Shown piece by piece: positions 847 through 45,068 of a DNA stretch of 61,496 nt (position 1 is its first letter; each line of letters starts with the position of its first letter). This DNA comes from Desulfobacteraceae bacterium (GTDB lineage: Bacteria; Desulfobacterota; Desulfobacteria; Desulfobacterales; SKZT01). The stretch is from assembly GCA_011389745.1 (NCBI GenBank), contig JAABTQ010000008.1:1-61496 (forward strand), in the 5' to 3' direction. Both the position numbers and the translations under genes were made by a program. The notes under the pieces were generated by a model, which ran no database searches, was not told the origin of the DNA, and was given only the letters and a program-made list of their open reading frames with translations.

Positions 847-861
847 AGGGAGGTTAACTTG
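847..861 (+). promoter_or_regulatory. Ribosome binding site that fixes a TTG start for the MglA-like gene
   Basis: AGGGAGG (847-853) lies 5 bases before TTG (859-861). Starting here gives M-A-A-I-N-I-K-K-K, which aligns directly with the start M-A-F-I-N-Q-K-K-K of the paralogue at 39694-40299. The upstream ATG at 832 has no good ribosome binding site and adds nine residues absent from the paralogue. Confidence 0.75.
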
Positions 862-1464
862 GCAGCCATAAATATAAAAAAAAAGCTTATCCAGGTCAAA
901 ATAGTTTATTATGGGCCAGGCAGAGGCGGAAAAACCACCAATCTTGAGTATATATATAATAAATTCCGACACCGGATGCAATCTGAACTCATTAGCATAA
1001 AAACCCAGGGAGATCGCACACTTTTTTTTGATTTTTTGCCTATCGGAATCGGTAAAGTCAGAGGCTATGAAATCAGAATACAACTATACACTGTACCTGG
1101 TCAGGTGCGCTATAACGCTTCACGGCGACTGGTATTAAATGGTGTAGATGGTATTGTTTTTGTAGCAGATTCAATGGTGATCCGAAAGGAACGGAATTTA
1201 CTTTCCATGAAAAACCTTGAGGAAAACCTGCTCCTGTACAAAACAGATATCAGGAAAATACCTCTTGTGATGCAATACAATAAGAGGGATTTGTCGGAAA
1301 AGGGCATAACATTGCTGGATATCGAGGATATGGAACGTGATTTAAACTCAAAATTAAAGGTACCATTTTATTCTGCCAGTGCTATGTTGGGCCGAAATGT
1401 TGTCGCGACTTTAAAAACAATTGTAGTCTTGACAATGAATAGCCTGAAAAATGAGTTCAAATAG
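859..1464 (+). CDS. mglA: MglA-like small Ras-family GTPase (copy 1)
   Basis: Small GTPase of the bacterial MglA group, which in Myxococcus sets cell polarity and controls type IV pili and gliding. From the TTG start (about 201 residues) the P-loop GPGRGGKTT is at residues 19-27, the switch II region reads TVPGQV (the MglA-type form of DxxG), and the base-recognition motif is QYNKRDL. It is strongly similar to the second copy at 39694-40299. It sits 109 bases upstream of a PilB-type motor ATPase on the same strand, which suggests that this GTPase governs a type IV pilus or secretion machine. No MglB/Roadblock partner lies beside this copy; one accompanies copy 2. Confidence 0.87.
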   Translation: MAAINIKKKLIQVKIVYYGPGRGGKTTNLEYIYNKFRHRMQSELISIKTQGDRTLFFDFLPIGIGKVRGYEIRIQLYTVPGQVRYNASRRLVLNGVDGIVFVADSMVIRKERNLLSMKNLEENLLLYKTDIRKIPLVMQYNKRDLSEKGITLLDIEDMERDLNSKLKVPFYSASAMLGRNVVATLKTIVVLTMNSLKNEFK

Positions 1465-39037: not shown

Positions 39038-39679
39038 CTATGATCGTTTTTTCATCAGCATTCTTAACTCAGCTTTCATGTCATTAAATTCAGCTTTGAT
39101 CATTGCTTTAATTTCTTCAATGGCAATGGTAAGTTCCACGGGAATATCGGGCTTTTCGATTTCAATTTCTTTTTGATATACTTTTTCAAGGGGTTTTACT
39201 GCCTGTGCCTGTGTATCTTTTTTCAAGGAAACTTGCTCTTTTAATACTATAAATCGGCTGACTTCGGTCTGAAGAAGTTGTTTTCTATCTGAATCGCTCA
39301 ACTTATTGTCAAGAGCTGCTTTTTCAAAGCTTTGGATGGTGGAGTTGAGCAATTTGATAGAATCGGGATGGGCATTGGCTTTTTTGGCTTTGATATAAAC
39401 CCCGAGCTTTCCAAGGAGTTGTAAAAATAAAAGGAGAATACGGTCTTGCTGGTAGACGTTTTTAAGGATCGAAATTTGATCCATTAAACTGGACATTGTT
39501 TCATCGTTAATTTCCCAGTCGATAGATAAAACAACGGCTTTAAGTGCTCGAAGCACATCGTCCGAATTTTCTGATTCTTCAAAAATATCGTCATGAGTTG
39601 GTCCGTCATCTTCCTTGAATAATTCTTCAAGGCGACTCTTCACTTCGGAGGAAACCGATAGATCCTTTTTTTGAGCCAT
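39038..39679 (-). CDS. Uncharacterised protein of the MglA/Roadblock operon
   Basis: 213 residues, not recognised. Charged and helical throughout: an acidic N-terminus (EEDDGPTHDDIFEES region), a leucine-rich middle (about 85-110, RILLLFLQLLGKLGVYIKAKK), a linker with Lys/Gln, and a C-terminal coiled-coil-like segment (IEEIKAMIKAEFNDMKAELRMLMKK). No signal peptide. It follows the MglA-like gene by 14 bases with AGGAAA before its ATG, so it is probably an effector or scaffold of that GTPase (inference). Confidence 0.75.
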   Translation of the reverse strand: MAQKKDLSVSSEVKSRLEELFKEDDGPTHDDIFEESENSDDVLRALKAVVLSIDWEINDETMSSLMDQISILKNVYQQDRILLLFLQLLGKLGVYIKAKKANAHPDSIKLLNSTIQSFEKAALDNKLSDSDRKQLLQTEVSRFIVLKEQVSLKKDTQAQAVKPLEKVYQKEIEIEKPDIPVELTIAIEEIKAMIKAEFNDMKAELRMLMKKRS

Positions 39680-39693
39680 TTTCCTGCACCTCC

Positions 39694-40299
39694 CTATTTG
39701 AATTCCTTTTGCAAGGAAATCAGCGTCATATGTATGATCTTTTTCATGGTTTGAACCACGTTAATCCCTTTTAAAGCACTGGCTTTAAAGGCAGGGGCCT
39801 TGAATTTGCAATTGAGAGATTCCTCAAGCGTATTGTAGGATAAAAGTGGTATCCCCTGTTTGGCCAGATCCATTTTGTTATATTGCATCACAAGAGGAAT
39901 TTTATAGATATCTGTATTGAACATATTCAGATTTTCCTGAAGGTTATCCAATGCTGAAATATTTTTATCTTTTCTAACGACCATGGCATCGGCGACAAAA
40001 ACGATTCCGTCTACGCCACGCAATACCAGTGCTCTGGTGGCATTGTATTTGACTTGCCCTGGAACGGTGTATAGCTGAATTTTGATGTCATATCCTTTGA
40101 TCTTTCCGATGTTGAAAGGCAGGAAATCGAAAAACAGGGTTCTATCCCCCTGAGTTTTAATAGTCACCATTTCCGCTTTAATGCGTTCACTGAATTTCCT
40201 GTGGATATACTCAAGGTTAGTTGTTTTGCCGCCTCTGCCGGGCCCGTAATAAACAATTTTGACCTGAACTTCTTTTTTTTTTTGATTGATAAATGCCAT
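39694..40299 (-). CDS. mglA: MglA-like small Ras-family GTPase (copy 2)
   Basis: 201 residues from ATG 40299. P-loop GPGRGGKTTNLEYI at 19-32, TVPGQVKYNATRALVLRGVDGIVFVADA (switch II and following strand) and QYNKMDL base motif. It is roughly two-thirds identical by eye to copy 1 at 859-1464. The start is set by alignment to copy 1; the frame is open 23 codons further but without a ribosome site. It lies between a Roadblock protein (upstream) and a helical protein (downstream), so it has its own likely GAP-like partner. Confidence 0.88.
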   Translation of the reverse strand: MAFINQKKKEVQVKIVYYGPGRGGKTTNLEYIHRKFSERIKAEMVTIKTQGDRTLFFDFLPFNIGKIKGYDIKIQLYTVPGQVKYNATRALVLRGVDGIVFVADAMVVRKDKNISALDNLQENLNMFNTDIYKIPLVMQYNKMDLAKQGIPLLSYNTLEESLNCKFKAPAFKASALKGINVVQTMKKIIHMTLISLQKEFK

Positions 40300-40397
40300 G
40301 TGAAGATTCCCGCAAAAAAGGTGAACGGGGTAACCTCTTTTTACCAAACAGTCAAAGGAATAGTACAATCGAAAATGGACTAAATCAGCTGAGAATG

Positions 40398-40784
40398 TTA
40401 TAGTATATGTTTAATTTTATCGATTACTTCGGTGACCTTTAGCCTTAAAAAACCCAGAGAGATAAGGTTGCCGAAGATGGTAATCAAAAGAAATTCCTGT
40501 GAAACTTTACTGAAATGGATATTCTCTTTCTTGCCTTTATGAAAAAGAAGTGAAAATTCATCTTCACCGATAATTTTTGCCATGGCGCTGACAGCACCAA
40601 AATTACCTGCTGCTAATGCCGCTAAAGAGTAAATATCATGAACTACTTCCCCCTCATGAAGATCTGCGATGATGTTTCCCGCCATGTCGATCAGGAATAC
40701 GCATTGAACTCCCACATCAATGAGTTCTTTTTTCAGGATATCCTCAATGCCGTCAAGCTGTTTTTGTCCGAGTGAATAAGACAA
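40398..40784 (-). CDS. Roadblock/LC7-domain protein (MglB-like)
   Basis: 128 residues forming one Roadblock fold: VQCVFLIDMAGNIIADL, followed by AALAAGNFGAVSAMAKIIGE and a strand-rich end. In Myxococcus the homologous MglB is the GAP of MglA. The start is TTG 40784 with AGGAGG 7 bases upstream; no ATG is available near it. It precedes MglA copy 2 by 98 bases. Confidence 0.83.
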   Translation of the reverse strand: MSYSLGQKQLDGIEDILKKELIDVGVQCVFLIDMAGNIIADLHEGEVVHDIYSLAALAAGNFGAVSAMAKIIGEDEFSLLFHKGKKENIHFSKVSQEFLLITIFGNLISLGFLRLKVTEVIDKIKHIL

Positions 40785-41060
40785 TTCACGACCTCCTGTT
40801 TTTTGAATTTGGTTGCTTTTTTATTCAGTGTGGTTACAAAATTTTGAAGCACAGAGCAGAACCGATTTCCGGATATCCCGGAGCTAGTTTATTCTTCAAG
40901 TTTTTTTCATAACATCATTGTGTTGAAACAGTCAACAAAATAGATTGTTTCAAACGGACGGAACTATCAGACTACAGTGAATGTCTAATATTTAATAAAA
41001 GTCTTGAGAAACAGTCCTGTTTTTCATAATGTAGTTTAAGATGATTTGAAATTTTGTCAT

Positions 41061-42695
41061 ATGAAAACCCAGCCTTTTGAAAATGAAAACGGATTAAGAA
41101 GAGGTGACTTCAAAAAGATGTCTAGCCCGAAAATTGACGCTACAATTCAACAACTATCCATGTTGTTGGAATCGCTTCCTATGGTTGCTTATATATGCAA
41201 CGCCCATGGAAAATGTGAGATAACCTATGTCAGCAGATCCATAGAAGAAATGACTGGTTATTCACCTTCTCAATTTGTCCGGGATCCGGTCTTTTGGTGC
41301 AAATGTATCCACGAGGATGATCGAAAAAAATTTCTGGCTGAGCTTGAGGCGTCTTGTCTTCATGAAAAATATCAGACCGAATACAGACTACGTATTGCCG
41401 ACAATACTTACCGCTGGATTTCCGATACCCGACGCTCGATTAAGGGCGTTAAAGGAAAAATAAAACACATTGTAGGGGCATGGCAGGATATCAGTGAAGA
41501 AATAAAATTGAGGCAGGAATCCGACTATCGCTTACAACAAATCATCCAAGCCGACAAATTGGCTGCTTTAGGTCAAGTTGTAGCCGGTGTGGCTCATGAA
41601 ATTAATAACCCCAACAGTTTTATCACTTACAATATTCCAATCCTTGAAGAAACGTGGCATATTTTTGAGCCTATTTTAAAGGAATACGGCAACCGTCATC
41701 CTGACTGGCGTAATAGTAATATGACATTATCCGAGCTGTGTGAGGATATGGGAGCGATTATTAAGGCAATAAAAATCGGGTCAGACAGGATCACCAGGGT
41801 GGTAGACAATCTTAAAGAGTTTGCGCGAGCTGATGCAGGCGAAGCTTTTAAACCCGTTAATATTAATGAAGTGGTGGAAAAAACGATGCTGATTGTTGGA
41901 GGGCAGGTCCGCAAATCAGCAGTGGATATTCAAATCAATCTGTTGGATGAATTACCTCTTGTTAATGGCCATTTTCAGAAACTTGAACAGGTTGTAGCAA
42001 ATATTCTGGTAAATGCCGCACAGGCTATTCCAAATCGTGAAAAAGGCAAAATTATAATAAATACGCGCTATTTGAAACATCCTGATTGTATACTCATTGA
42101 AGTGGAGGACAATGGCATGGGGATGAAAACGGATGTTTTGGATCGTATATTCGAGCCATTTTTTACCAGTCGGCGCAATTCAGGAGGAACCGGTCTTGGT
42201 CTCTCAGTTTCCTATGGTCTTATTCAGGAACATAAAGGTAAAATCTGTGTACACTCAAAAATAGGAATCGGCAGTCGGTTCATGATTTTTCTTCCGGTGG
42301 AAAATGCCCTGAAAACCGAACTTCGCCCGGCAATACTTTGTGTTGACGATGATTTCATGATGCTTGATATGATCAGGACACTTTTTGTGGAAGTTAAAGA
42401 TATGGTGTTTGAAAGCACGAGCAATCCGGAAAGCGTTTTATCTTATCTGGAAGAACATCCGGAGGTTGATATCGTTATATCGGATATTGTCATGCCGGGT
42501 ATCAATGGTTGGGATCTTTTATCGAAAATAAAGGACAGGTTTCCCCTGATATCGGTAATACTTTATTCGGGCAATAAAGATGTTCTCATGAGCCGGCCGG
42601 AAGGTGTTCCCGAACCGGATCACCTGTTGGAAAAACCTTTTGATATCAATAAACTCCTTAACATTATCTATACTACTGACAGGCAGCGACTATGA
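41061..42695 (+). CDS. Hybrid sensor histidine kinase (PAS-HisKA-HATPase-REC)
   Basis: About 544 residues, soluble (no membrane segment). PAS/PAC at about 30-145; HisKA with phospho-His179 in AGVAHEINNPNS; HATPase with NILVNAAQA (N-box), DNGMGM and GGTGLGLSVSYG; C-terminal receiver with acidic VDDD and phospho-Asp in IVISDIVMPG (about residue 473). Phosphate probably passes to the adjacent NtrC-type regulator, whose start overlaps this stop (ATGA). The start is uncertain: TTG 41046, ATG 41061, or ATG 41118 with a GAGGTG upstream. Confidence 0.87.
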   Translation: MKTQPFENENGLRRGDFKKMSSPKIDATIQQLSMLLESLPMVAYICNAHGKCEITYVSRSIEEMTGYSPSQFVRDPVFWCKCIHEDDRKKFLAELEASCLHEKYQTEYRLRIADNTYRWISDTRRSIKGVKGKIKHIVGAWQDISEEIKLRQESDYRLQQIIQADKLAALGQVVAGVAHEINNPNSFITYNIPILEETWHIFEPILKEYGNRHPDWRNSNMTLSELCEDMGAIIKAIKIGSDRITRVVDNLKEFARADAGEAFKPVNINEVVEKTMLIVGGQVRKSAVDIQINLLDELPLVNGHFQKLEQVVANILVNAAQAIPNREKGKIIINTRYLKHPDCILIEVEDNGMGMKTDVLDRIFEPFFTSRRNSGGTGLGLSVSYGLIQEHKGKICVHSKIGIGSRFMIFLPVENALKTELRPAILCVDDDFMMLDMIRTLFVEVKDMVFESTSNPESVLSYLEEHPEVDIVISDIVMPGINGWDLLSKIKDRFPLISVILYSGNKDVLMSRPEGVPEPDHLLEKPFDINKLLNIIYTTDRQRL

Positions 42696-44059
42696 AAATT
42701 CTTGTTGTGGATGATGAACAGGTGGCGTTGACATCTATCAGGAGAGTTTTCAGGCACCATGGATATAACCAGGTAAATACATGTGATAACGGAAAAGATG
42801 CCATAGAGCTTATTAAGGCAAAGGGTTATGATATCGTATTGCTGGATTTGCTCATGCCCGGACTCGGTGGTATGGAAGTTTTGACTTCGACAAAACCCTT
42901 TAGCCAAGAAACCGAGTTTATTATGCTGACAGCAGTTGATGATCTTGCTACAGCGGTTTCAGCCATTAGAAATGGCGCATATGATTATCTAATTAAAACC
43001 GTAGATCCGCATCGACTTATTCTTTCAGTGGAAAGAGCCTATGAACACAAGGGCCTTTTAGCAGGACTCGCTGGTAACCTGGCACACAGAAACAAAGAAG
43101 TGCCCAAAATTTTTTCTGAAATTATCACCCAGTCTCCCAGGATGATTGAGTTGTTATCCTTTGCTCAGGTTATGGCCAAAAGCGGTAATCCGATTATTGT
43201 TACAGGAGAGTCCGGTACAGGTAAGGAGCTTTTGGCAAGGGGCATCCACCGGGGGGGGCCCTGCCCGGATGGTCCTTTTGTTCCTGTAAACGTGTCATCA
43301 ATTCCCGAATCCTTGTTTGAAAGCCAGTTTTTCGGTCATGTCAAAGGTTCATTTACAGGAGCCCAGACCGATCATCCAGGCTTTTTTCGCCAGGCACATG
43401 GCGGAACCCTGTTTTTAGATGAAATCGGTGAACTCCCTTTTAACCTTCAGGCTAAGCTTTTAAGAGTTTTGGAGGATAAAATCATCACACCTATTGGAGA
43501 AACCAGGTCAAATTCCGTATCCGTCAGAATTGTCTCTGCCACCAACCAGGATTTAAATAAAGGTTGCCGGGAAGGAACTTTTCGCTTAGACCTTTTTTAC
43601 CGTCTGAAATCAGCCAATATTCATCTTCCGCCTCTCAGGGAAAGGGAAGGTGATCTGTTGCTTCTGGCAAATTATTTTCTCAAAAGCGCATGCCAACGCC
43701 ATCAGAAAAGCATTAATGGATTTCATCCGGATACCATGAAATTTTTAACACAAAAAGATTACCCTGGAAATATTCGTGAACTGGCACAAGTTGTTGAAAA
43801 TGCTGTTTTATTAACTGAAACCGACCAGATTCTCCCCCACACCCTTGGAGGGATATCTATGCCGGGCAATCTCTTTGACCGTCAGTTATGTACGCTTAAA
43901 GAAGACGCAGATATACAGCTGGTTTATGTGCTGAAAAATACCAATGGTGATCGTCGAAAGGCAGCCGGTATTTTAGGTATTTCAATGCGTCAGGTGCAGC
44001 GAAGAGTTGCTCTCCTCAATCAACAACCCCACTGGAAAAAGATTATAGATGACATTTAG
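42692..44059 (+). CDS. NtrC-family sigma54-dependent response regulator
   Basis: 455 residues: receiver (phospho-Asp52 in IVLLDLLMPG), AAA+ sigma54-activator domain with Walker A GESGTGKE (172-179), GSFTGA loop (219-224; the sigma54-contacting GAFTGA with Ala to Ser), Walker B GGTLFLDEIGE, and a C-terminal Fis-type HTH (NGDRRKAAGILGISMRQVQRR). It overlaps the kinase gene by 4 bases, so the two form a coupled two-component system. About 280 bases beyond its stop is a near-perfect sigma54 promoter, its likely target. The short HTH is atypical but intact. Confidence 0.92.
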   Translation: MKILVVDDEQVALTSIRRVFRHHGYNQVNTCDNGKDAIELIKAKGYDIVLLDLLMPGLGGMEVLTSTKPFSQETEFIMLTAVDDLATAVSAIRNGAYDYLIKTVDPHRLILSVERAYEHKGLLAGLAGNLAHRNKEVPKIFSEIITQSPRMIELLSFAQVMAKSGNPIIVTGESGTGKELLARGIHRGGPCPDGPFVPVNVSSIPESLFESQFFGHVKGSFTGAQTDHPGFFRQAHGGTLFLDEIGELPFNLQAKLLRVLEDKIITPIGETRSNSVSVRIVSATNQDLNKGCREGTFRLDLFYRLKSANIHLPPLREREGDLLLLANYFLKSACQRHQKSINGFHPDTMKFLTQKDYPGNIRELAQVVENAVLLTETDQILPHTLGGISMPGNLFDRQLCTLKEDADIQLVYVLKNTNGDRRKAAGILGISMRQVQRRVALLNQQPHWKKIIDDI

Positions 44060-44071
44060 GTCATAAGGCGG

Positions 44072-44085
44072 CGACGTTAATGTCG
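44072..44085. promoter_or_regulatory. Palindrome CGAC-N6-GTCG, candidate activator site 1
   Basis: CGACGTTAATGTCG, about 290 bases upstream of the predicted sigma54 transcription start. It shares the CGAC-N6-GTCG form with a second site at 44164. Alternative reading: with the following T-run (about 44092-44098) it may be the terminator of the regulator gene. Confidence 0.35.
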
Positions 44086-44163: not shown

Positions 44164-44177
44164 CGACACTTAAGTCG
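44164..44177. promoter_or_regulatory. Palindrome CGAC-N6-GTCG, candidate activator site 2
   Basis: CGACACTTAAGTCG (extends to ACGAC...GTCGT), about 198 bases upstream of the predicted sigma54 start. Same arm sequence as the site at 44072. Upstream pairs of palindromes are where NtrC-type proteins bind; the assignment is inferred. Confidence 0.4.
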
Positions 44178-44215
44178 TATTCAGGGCAAGGCTTCTTGCA
44201 AGTAACTCCCCACAA

Positions 44216-44303
44216 GTCCCCCTTTGAAAAGGAGGATTTAGCGGGATTTTAAAATGGCATCAGTTTGTCGAATTCCCCCGGCTTCCTTTTTCAAAGGGGG
44301 GAG
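44216..44303. repeat. Inverted-repeat (MITE-like) element
   Basis: Left arm CCCCCTTTGAAAAGGAGG (44218-44235) and right arm CTTCCTTTTTCAAAGGGGGG (44282-44301) are imperfect inverted copies enclosing about 46 bases. CCCCCTTTGAAAAAGG-type ends are common in small non-coding repeats of many bacteria. It lies between the candidate activator sites and the sigma54 promoter. Confidence 0.65.
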
Positions 44304-44342
44304 CAGTTTTTTTAAATCACATCTTATTTTTATTAATATTTA

Positions 44343-44358
44343 TGGCACAACTATTGCT
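44343..44358 (+). promoter_or_regulatory. Sigma54 promoter
   Basis: TGGCAC (44343-44348), AACTA, TTGCT (44354-44358): an exact match to the -24/-12 consensus TGGCAC-N5-TTGC(A/T). Predicted start at G44369. It lies downstream of a gene for an NtrC-type sigma54 activator and upstream of the candidate small RNA and receiver gene. Confidence 0.85.
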
Positions 44359-44368
44359 TAATAAAAAA

Positions 44369-44540
44369 GCGAGCGGATATACGGACCAAGCATATCGGGA
44401 CCAACTTCTTTCCCGAAAATACTTTCCAGAGTCCTGTATCCATTCGTTTCAGGGCCGGGAGATATTTTCCCACCAACCTCACCTCCCTCCCCCTTCAGGT
44501 GACAGATCCCGGCCTTGAAACATTTTAATTTTTTACTTTG
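44369..44540 (+). ncRNA. Candidate sigma54-dependent small RNA with anti-Shine-Dalgarno loop
   Basis: About 170 bases, no open frame. A first hairpin TCGGGA/TCCCGA (44395-44400, 44411-44416) with a 10-base loop follows two GGACCAA copies. A 15-bp stem GTTTCAGGGCCGGGA (44446-44460) pairs with its complement at 44507-44521 with one G-U pair, then ATTTTAATTTTTT: an intrinsic-terminator layout. Its roughly 46-base loop is C-rich and contains TCACCTCC (44479-44486), identical to the 3' end of 16S rRNA that reads Shine-Dalgarno sites, so it could bind ribosome sites of target mRNAs. It could instead be a structured leader of the receiver gene at 44622. Confidence 0.5.
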
Positions 44541-44621: not shown

Positions 44622-45068
44622 ATGAAAATTACCAAAAAAAGATATGTGGCAGCGGATATCAAAAGTATTCTCATCGTCGATGACGAACCTGAGTTTATCA
44701 AAACCGTTCATCGTCACTTAAAAAGAGAAGGTTTTACTCTGTATTCAGCTTCTGATGGCTTAGAAGCCAGGGAAAAAATTGAGCAAAATTTAAAAGAAGG
44801 CAATCTGATTCAGGTGGTTATAACGGATATCTTTATGCCTCGAATGGATGGCATACAATTAATGAAGTGGGTTAAGGATTTCCATCCGGAAATATCCTTG
44901 CTGGCCGTTTCCGGATTTGCGGAAACAATTATTGCCCGCAAAATAATTCGTCCTGAAATGGATGAATATTGTCAGAAACCTTTTACACCAAATAAAATGA
45001 TGGTGCTTTTGGATAGTATTCATAATAAACGTCAAATCCAGGGTTGCAACTCCATGATAAAGATTTAA
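44622..45068 (+). CDS. Single-domain response regulator (receiver only)
   Basis: 148 residues with one receiver fold: ILIVDDEPEFIKTVHRHL, phospho-Asp69 in VVITDIFMPRMDG, Ser/Thr position in LLAVSG, and Lys in CQKPF. No output domain. It may act as a phosphate relay with the upstream hybrid kinase and activator. It lacks a clear Shine-Dalgarno before ATG 44622. It is about 80 bases downstream of the candidate small RNA's terminator-like hairpin and may be transcribed by read-through from the sigma54 promoter. Confidence 0.83.
   Translation: MKITKKRYVAADIKSILIVDDEPEFIKTVHRHLKREGFTLYSASDGLEAREKIEQNLKEGNLIQVVITDIFMPRMDGIQLMKWVKDFHPEISLLAVSGFAETIIARKIIRPEMDEYCQKPFTPNKMMVLLDSIHNKRQIQGCNSMIKI

Follow-up and report, generated by a model that had tools for sequence, protein, structure and literature searches.

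The window, the whole 61,496-nucleotide stretch of Desulfobacteraceae DNA that was analysed, encodes a sensor histidine kinase and an NtrC-type sigma54 activator, and the 562-bp intergenic stretch 3′ of the activator gene contains a sigma54 site. A single-domain response-regulator gene follows. The locus was compared with two relatives, namely the Desulfobacteraceae MAG SKZT01 (G001), the sole same-genus genome examined, and the Desulfobacterales MAG JAGYNR01 (G002), the sole same-family genome examined. The features of the locus in the window are:

41046-42695, + strand: sensor histidine kinase (PAS-HisKA-HATPase-REC, by Pfam)
42692-44059, + strand: NtrC-type sigma54 activator (REC, Sigma54_activat and a weak HTH_8 Fis-type match, by Pfam and by orthologs in the order)
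44051-44062, no strand assigned: putative activator site UAS1, GACATTTAGGTC, from the conserved GAC-N6-GTC triplet
44073-44084, no strand assigned: putative activator site UAS2, GACGTTAATGTC, from the same conserved triplet
44165-44176, no strand assigned: putative activator site UAS3, GACACTTAAGTC, from the same conserved triplet
44196-44306, no strand assigned: interspersed palindromic repeat (one copy), located 3′ of UAS3 and 5′ of the promoter, a net +76 bp relative to the conserved 102-bp spacing
44343-44358, + strand: sigma54 promoter TGGCAC-N5-TTGCT, an exact and conserved -24/-12 match, with a predicted start at about 44369
44371-44445, + strand: 5′ hairpin of the RNA (outer helix 44375-44387/44431-44441; inner helix 44394-44399/44411-44416)
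44446-44521, + strand: 3′ hairpin, a 15-bp stem (44446-44460/44507-44521) closing a C-rich loop
44479-44486, + strand: UCACCUCC, with UCACCU predicted to be paired to AGGUGA at 44497-44502
44522-44540, + strand: U-rich tail, a possible intrinsic terminator judged from its sequence, present in G001 and absent in G002
44622-45068, + strand: single-domain response regulator, the putative ancestral target of the promoter (from its domains, and from orthologs directly after the promoter in related families)

The exact -24/-12 match that a sequence-only reading of this DNA had pointed out at 44343-44358 is present. No other exact match occurs in the window; the 3.6-Mb genome has nine in total, compared with three in a reversed control, and the start near 44369 is placed from the usual -12 spacing. 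This promoter at the 5′ end of the RNA is kept in the relatives, where its elements read TGGCAT/TGGCCC-N5-TTGCT, and rpoN is present in all three genomes. Activator orthologs with 56-69% identity were identified in 12 further genomes of this order, and the search returned the same genomes when repeated at class level. Most of the activator-ortholog loci carry GAC-N6-GTC palindromes at about -215, -194 and -102 from the sigma54 site. In the window, the triplet (44051, 44073 and 44165) has the same internal spacing but stands 76 bp farther from the promoter. Exactly in this gap between UAS3 and the promoter lies a palindromic repeat of 111 bp, which has at least 40 genomic copies of 81-90% identity. 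The shared palindromes, together with a shift that matches the repeat insertion, provide strong comparative evidence that the activator gene product would control the 44343 promoter. The adjacent activator gene with its predicted upstream sites is found in the window and has been lost in G001.

The 177 nt from 44369 were predicted to fold with -55.8 kcal/mol (z = -5.2), and none of 200 shuffles was as good, bearing out the earlier description of a stem with a large C-rich loop and a U-rich tail. The loop of the 3′ hairpin comprises 46 nt (44461-44506), and the 15-bp stem is followed by AUUUUAAUUUUUU. Homologs of the RNA were found at 73% identity in G001 and, more distant, in G002, so that the RNA is present in all three genomes examined of the window's family, and each of the three RNAs folds better than every shuffle. 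Common to them are the sigma54 site, the 5′ hairpin, the stem GUUUCARGGCYGG/CCGGCYUUGAAAC, with 10 of 14 pairs of the long stem identical in all three, and a C-rich loop with CCUCC; two C-rich blocks recur among the homologs. Between the window and G001, every one of the 30 consensus pairs is intact; at three of them both bases have changed and at two only one has, whereas structures slid by 1-3 columns kept at most 55% of the pairs and no double change. In a column-shuffle control, 59 of 500 shuffles reached the same covariation, which is not extreme with only three sequences. Under a null that shuffles substitutions, the window fold gave P 0.016 for the few broken pairs and P ~0.05 for the double changes, and neither was significant with the G001 fold. 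Because the sequences are so few, the conservation of pairing is moderate evidence.

A covariance model of the 3′ hairpin, searched against 389 genomes of the order, gave three strong matches and no further member; its weak matches, which are not accompanied by a suitably spaced sigma54 site, appear to be unrelated. Similarly, scanning genome_contigs, a collection with a single genome for each bacterial/archaeal species, for the stem pattern returned only the two known relatives. Rfam 15 contained no match at the gathering score and no credible one at permissive thresholds, in line with the sequence-only reading, which had recognised no known family. A small protein in place of an RNA was also considered and rejected, as there is no conserved ORF and a 58-aa ORF begins within the promoter.

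The sequence-only reading had further proposed that the loop exposes an anti-Shine-Dalgarno 8-mer. TCACCTCC is indeed located at 44479-44486, inside the C-rich loop, but its first six bases, UCACCU, are predicted to be paired to AGGUGA (44497-44502) within the same loop (unpaired probability 0.06-0.14), which leaves the motif only partly exposed. The only loop parts predicted to be open are CCCUCCCCCUUC and the upstream CCCACCAACC. All three genomes keep the stem and a C-rich loop with CCUCC, but UCACCUCC occurs in the window only and is missing from G001 and G002. The inner UCACCU/AGGUGA helix was likewise rejected as a conserved feature, since it is not kept in the homologs.

AGGGAGGT, complementary to part of the loop, was found where it had been described, at the starts of mglA copy 1 (847) and of the cupin regulator (20318), and additionally at the start of the gene beginning at 39679. 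Loop-to-ribosome-site matches of at least 7 nt occur in 4 of 44 window genes, and shuffled loops reach that in 37 of 300 cases; for matches of 5-6 nt, the 16S tail performs at least as well on these genes. Complementarity to the ribosome sites of the window genes was not above chance. In the whole genome, AGGGAGGT-N3-9-ATG occurs 15 times (the 8-mer as originally quoted, AGGGAGGU, stands before 15 ATGs), indicating that the 8-mer marks no particular target. With the 8-mer mostly paired and not conserved, and the target fit at chance, the proposal that the RNA silences mRNAs at their ribosome sites is not supported. By analogy, base-pairing at G-rich or Shine-Dalgarno-like sites is plausible, given that what stays open and conserved is a C-rich loop carried by a long stem, as in RepG and NfeR1. 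Two MglA-like small GTPase genes lie within the window (859-1464 and 39694-40368), the second adjoining an ORF that looks like roadblock/MglB (40398-40784).

At seven activator loci other than those of the window and G002, a sigma54 site precedes an ortholog of the response regulator at 44622. The leader between them is plain, about 35-80 nt long and without such an RNA in six of the seven. The remaining locus (L043), from another family, has an unrelated, strongly folded leader of 170 nt, about 26-196 bases after the start of the sigma54 site. A two-hairpin RNA of roughly 150 nt is interposed only in the window's family. Judged from this comparison, the promoter originally served the response regulator, the target to which these loci point, and the RNA is a late interposition in the window's family. 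At two loci from two families (L034 and L039), the activator is followed by a sigma54 site that stands before different genes and no response regulator, namely genes for a secreted protein and an SRPBCC-like protein (named by eye). The response-regulator gene still stands 3′ of the RNA in the window and in G002, which has no U-tract after the stem; it does not in G001, so a controlled gene 3′ of the RNA is not shared by all members. No sigma70-like promoter was found between the RNA and 44622 in the window, suggesting that the response-regulator gene is probably dependent on read-through.

G001 has lost the kinase, the activator, the palindromes and the response regulator, and retains the promoter and the RNA before a convergent gene. 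Its kinase remnant, 81 bp long, is still 74% identical, and the deletion may therefore be recent. A decayed remnant of the kinase PAS domain lies directly 5′ of the G001 sigma54 promoter (L010:8140-8430). That promoter and RNA were kept without a broken pair after the loss of the regulators speaks for an RNA that has its own function. The conserved promoter, the palindromes, the structure, the lack of an Rfam match and the survival in G001 support a putative sigma54-controlled non-coding RNA, the half of the earlier proposal that does not concern silencing. Hfq was not detected in the window genome, G001 or G002 by a search that works on controls.

We propose that a non-coding RNA some 150-170 nt long (about 44369-44530) depends on sigma54 and is switched on by the activator encoded just upstream, which would act from the three palindromic sites; we infer that this RNA accumulates as a separate species. 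It would have arisen within a single Desulfobacterales family, in what was the leader of the response-regulator gene, and most likely acts in trans and independently of Hfq. The long stem would present the C-rich loop (CCUCC/CCCUCC) to G-rich or Shine-Dalgarno-like sequences, presumably by pairing with mRNAs, and in two of the three genomes read-through beyond the hairpin may still provide the response regulator.

We give an RNA with its own function in trans, possibly doubling as a leader, close to an even chance. A cis-acting leader, in which a structured 5′ UTR acts through its hairpins as a conditional terminator or translational control of the response regulator only, is possible and appreciably less probable. 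It gains from the loci where the same promoter reaches the response regulator through a short leader free of the RNA, from the response-regulator gene that persists 3′ of the RNA in two genomes, from the missing sigma70-like promoter and from L043, where a structured leader exists independently; the G002 arrangement, with no U-tract and the response regulator downstream, makes a leader or attenuator a serious rival. However, G001 keeps promoter and RNA with pairing intact and has no response regulator to control. Moreover, a pseudoknot between the loop and the downstream G-rich stretch was rejected, because shuffles as good were frequent in the window (58 of 500) and G001 (227 of 500), with a marginal result in G002 (31 of 500). 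A combined history, in which the mRNA leader evolved into a stand-alone regulatory RNA, is leader and sRNA at once, and outlived the kinase, activator and response regulator in one species, is somewhat doubtful.

The RNA might instead bind and titrate a protein, using the C-rich loop or the paired stems, as CrcZ does with Hfq/Crc, and not pair with mRNAs. The long stem is conserved in sequence and not only in pairing, the C-rich blocks recur, and the layout is like that of cbrB-crcZ (PMC10562864), but there is no candidate protein and Hfq is undetected in all three genomes, and we consider titration unlikely. Least probable, and improbable in itself, is that the hairpin region is a relic without function, or a mobile inverted repeat, lying by chance between promoter and gene. 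Confinement to one family and the loss of regulators in G001 would fit a relic, but the hairpin region is single copy in the genome, and promoter elements, stems and loop type are kept in three genomes whose flanks align poorly.

In layout, the window RNA is closely paralleled by the Pxr sRNA of Myxococcus xanthus, which works with PxrK/PxrR and is likewise known in one lineage only (PMC5684412, PMC5568312). In both loci, a kinase gene and an NtrC-type activator gene are followed by a small RNA with several hairpins behind a sigma54 promoter, and the Pxr host has no Hfq (PMC5684412, PMC5568312). Pxr differs in having 108 nt and three stem-loops, and 3′ of it lies a predicted NADH dehydrogenase gene with no response regulator reported, whereas the window RNA is followed by one. 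CrcZ/CrcY of Pseudomonas and Azotobacter, under CbrA/CbrB, are also RpoN-dependent sRNAs encoded directly 3′ of a sigma54 activator gene (PMC10562864, PMC6292655). However, CrcZ works on Hfq-Crc, and Hfq is undetected in the window genome. A C-rich loop like that of the window RNA is not a known feature of CrcZ. RepG of Helicobacter pylori similarly has a C/U-rich loop on its 3′ hairpin, able to address G-rich mRNA leaders, but it targets a G-repeat of the tlpB leader and is not described as being under sigma54 control (PMC8295292); the resemblance is one of loop type. In the rhizobial alpha-r14/NfeR1, which LsrB activates and NtrC represses, unpaired CCUCC-type motifs occlude ribosome sites (PMC10746234). 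These RNAs differ in that their three hairpins carry identical, ultraconserved CCUCCUCCC motifs, three in all, compared with one C-rich loop of variable sequence in the window. By analogy, we file the window RNA as a putative sigma54 sRNA of the kind encoded beside its activator (Pxr, CrcZ type), outside any named family.

Little work has been done on sRNAs in sulfate-reducing Desulfobacterales, and in these genomes Hfq went undetected. The RNA would give a tractable case of the birth of a regulatory RNA and of Hfq-free action, with an origin dated inside an mRNA leader; what makes it tractable is that the three relatives stand at different stages and that the putative sites of the activator are mapped. 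The sigma54 site itself recurs elsewhere: all 16 bases (TGGCACAACTATTGCT) are identical at a second site of the window genome (G000:C66:120432-120447, L060), and the same 16 bases occur in G001 (L004 1515-1530), before an ORF resembling PII uridylyltransferase (glnD).
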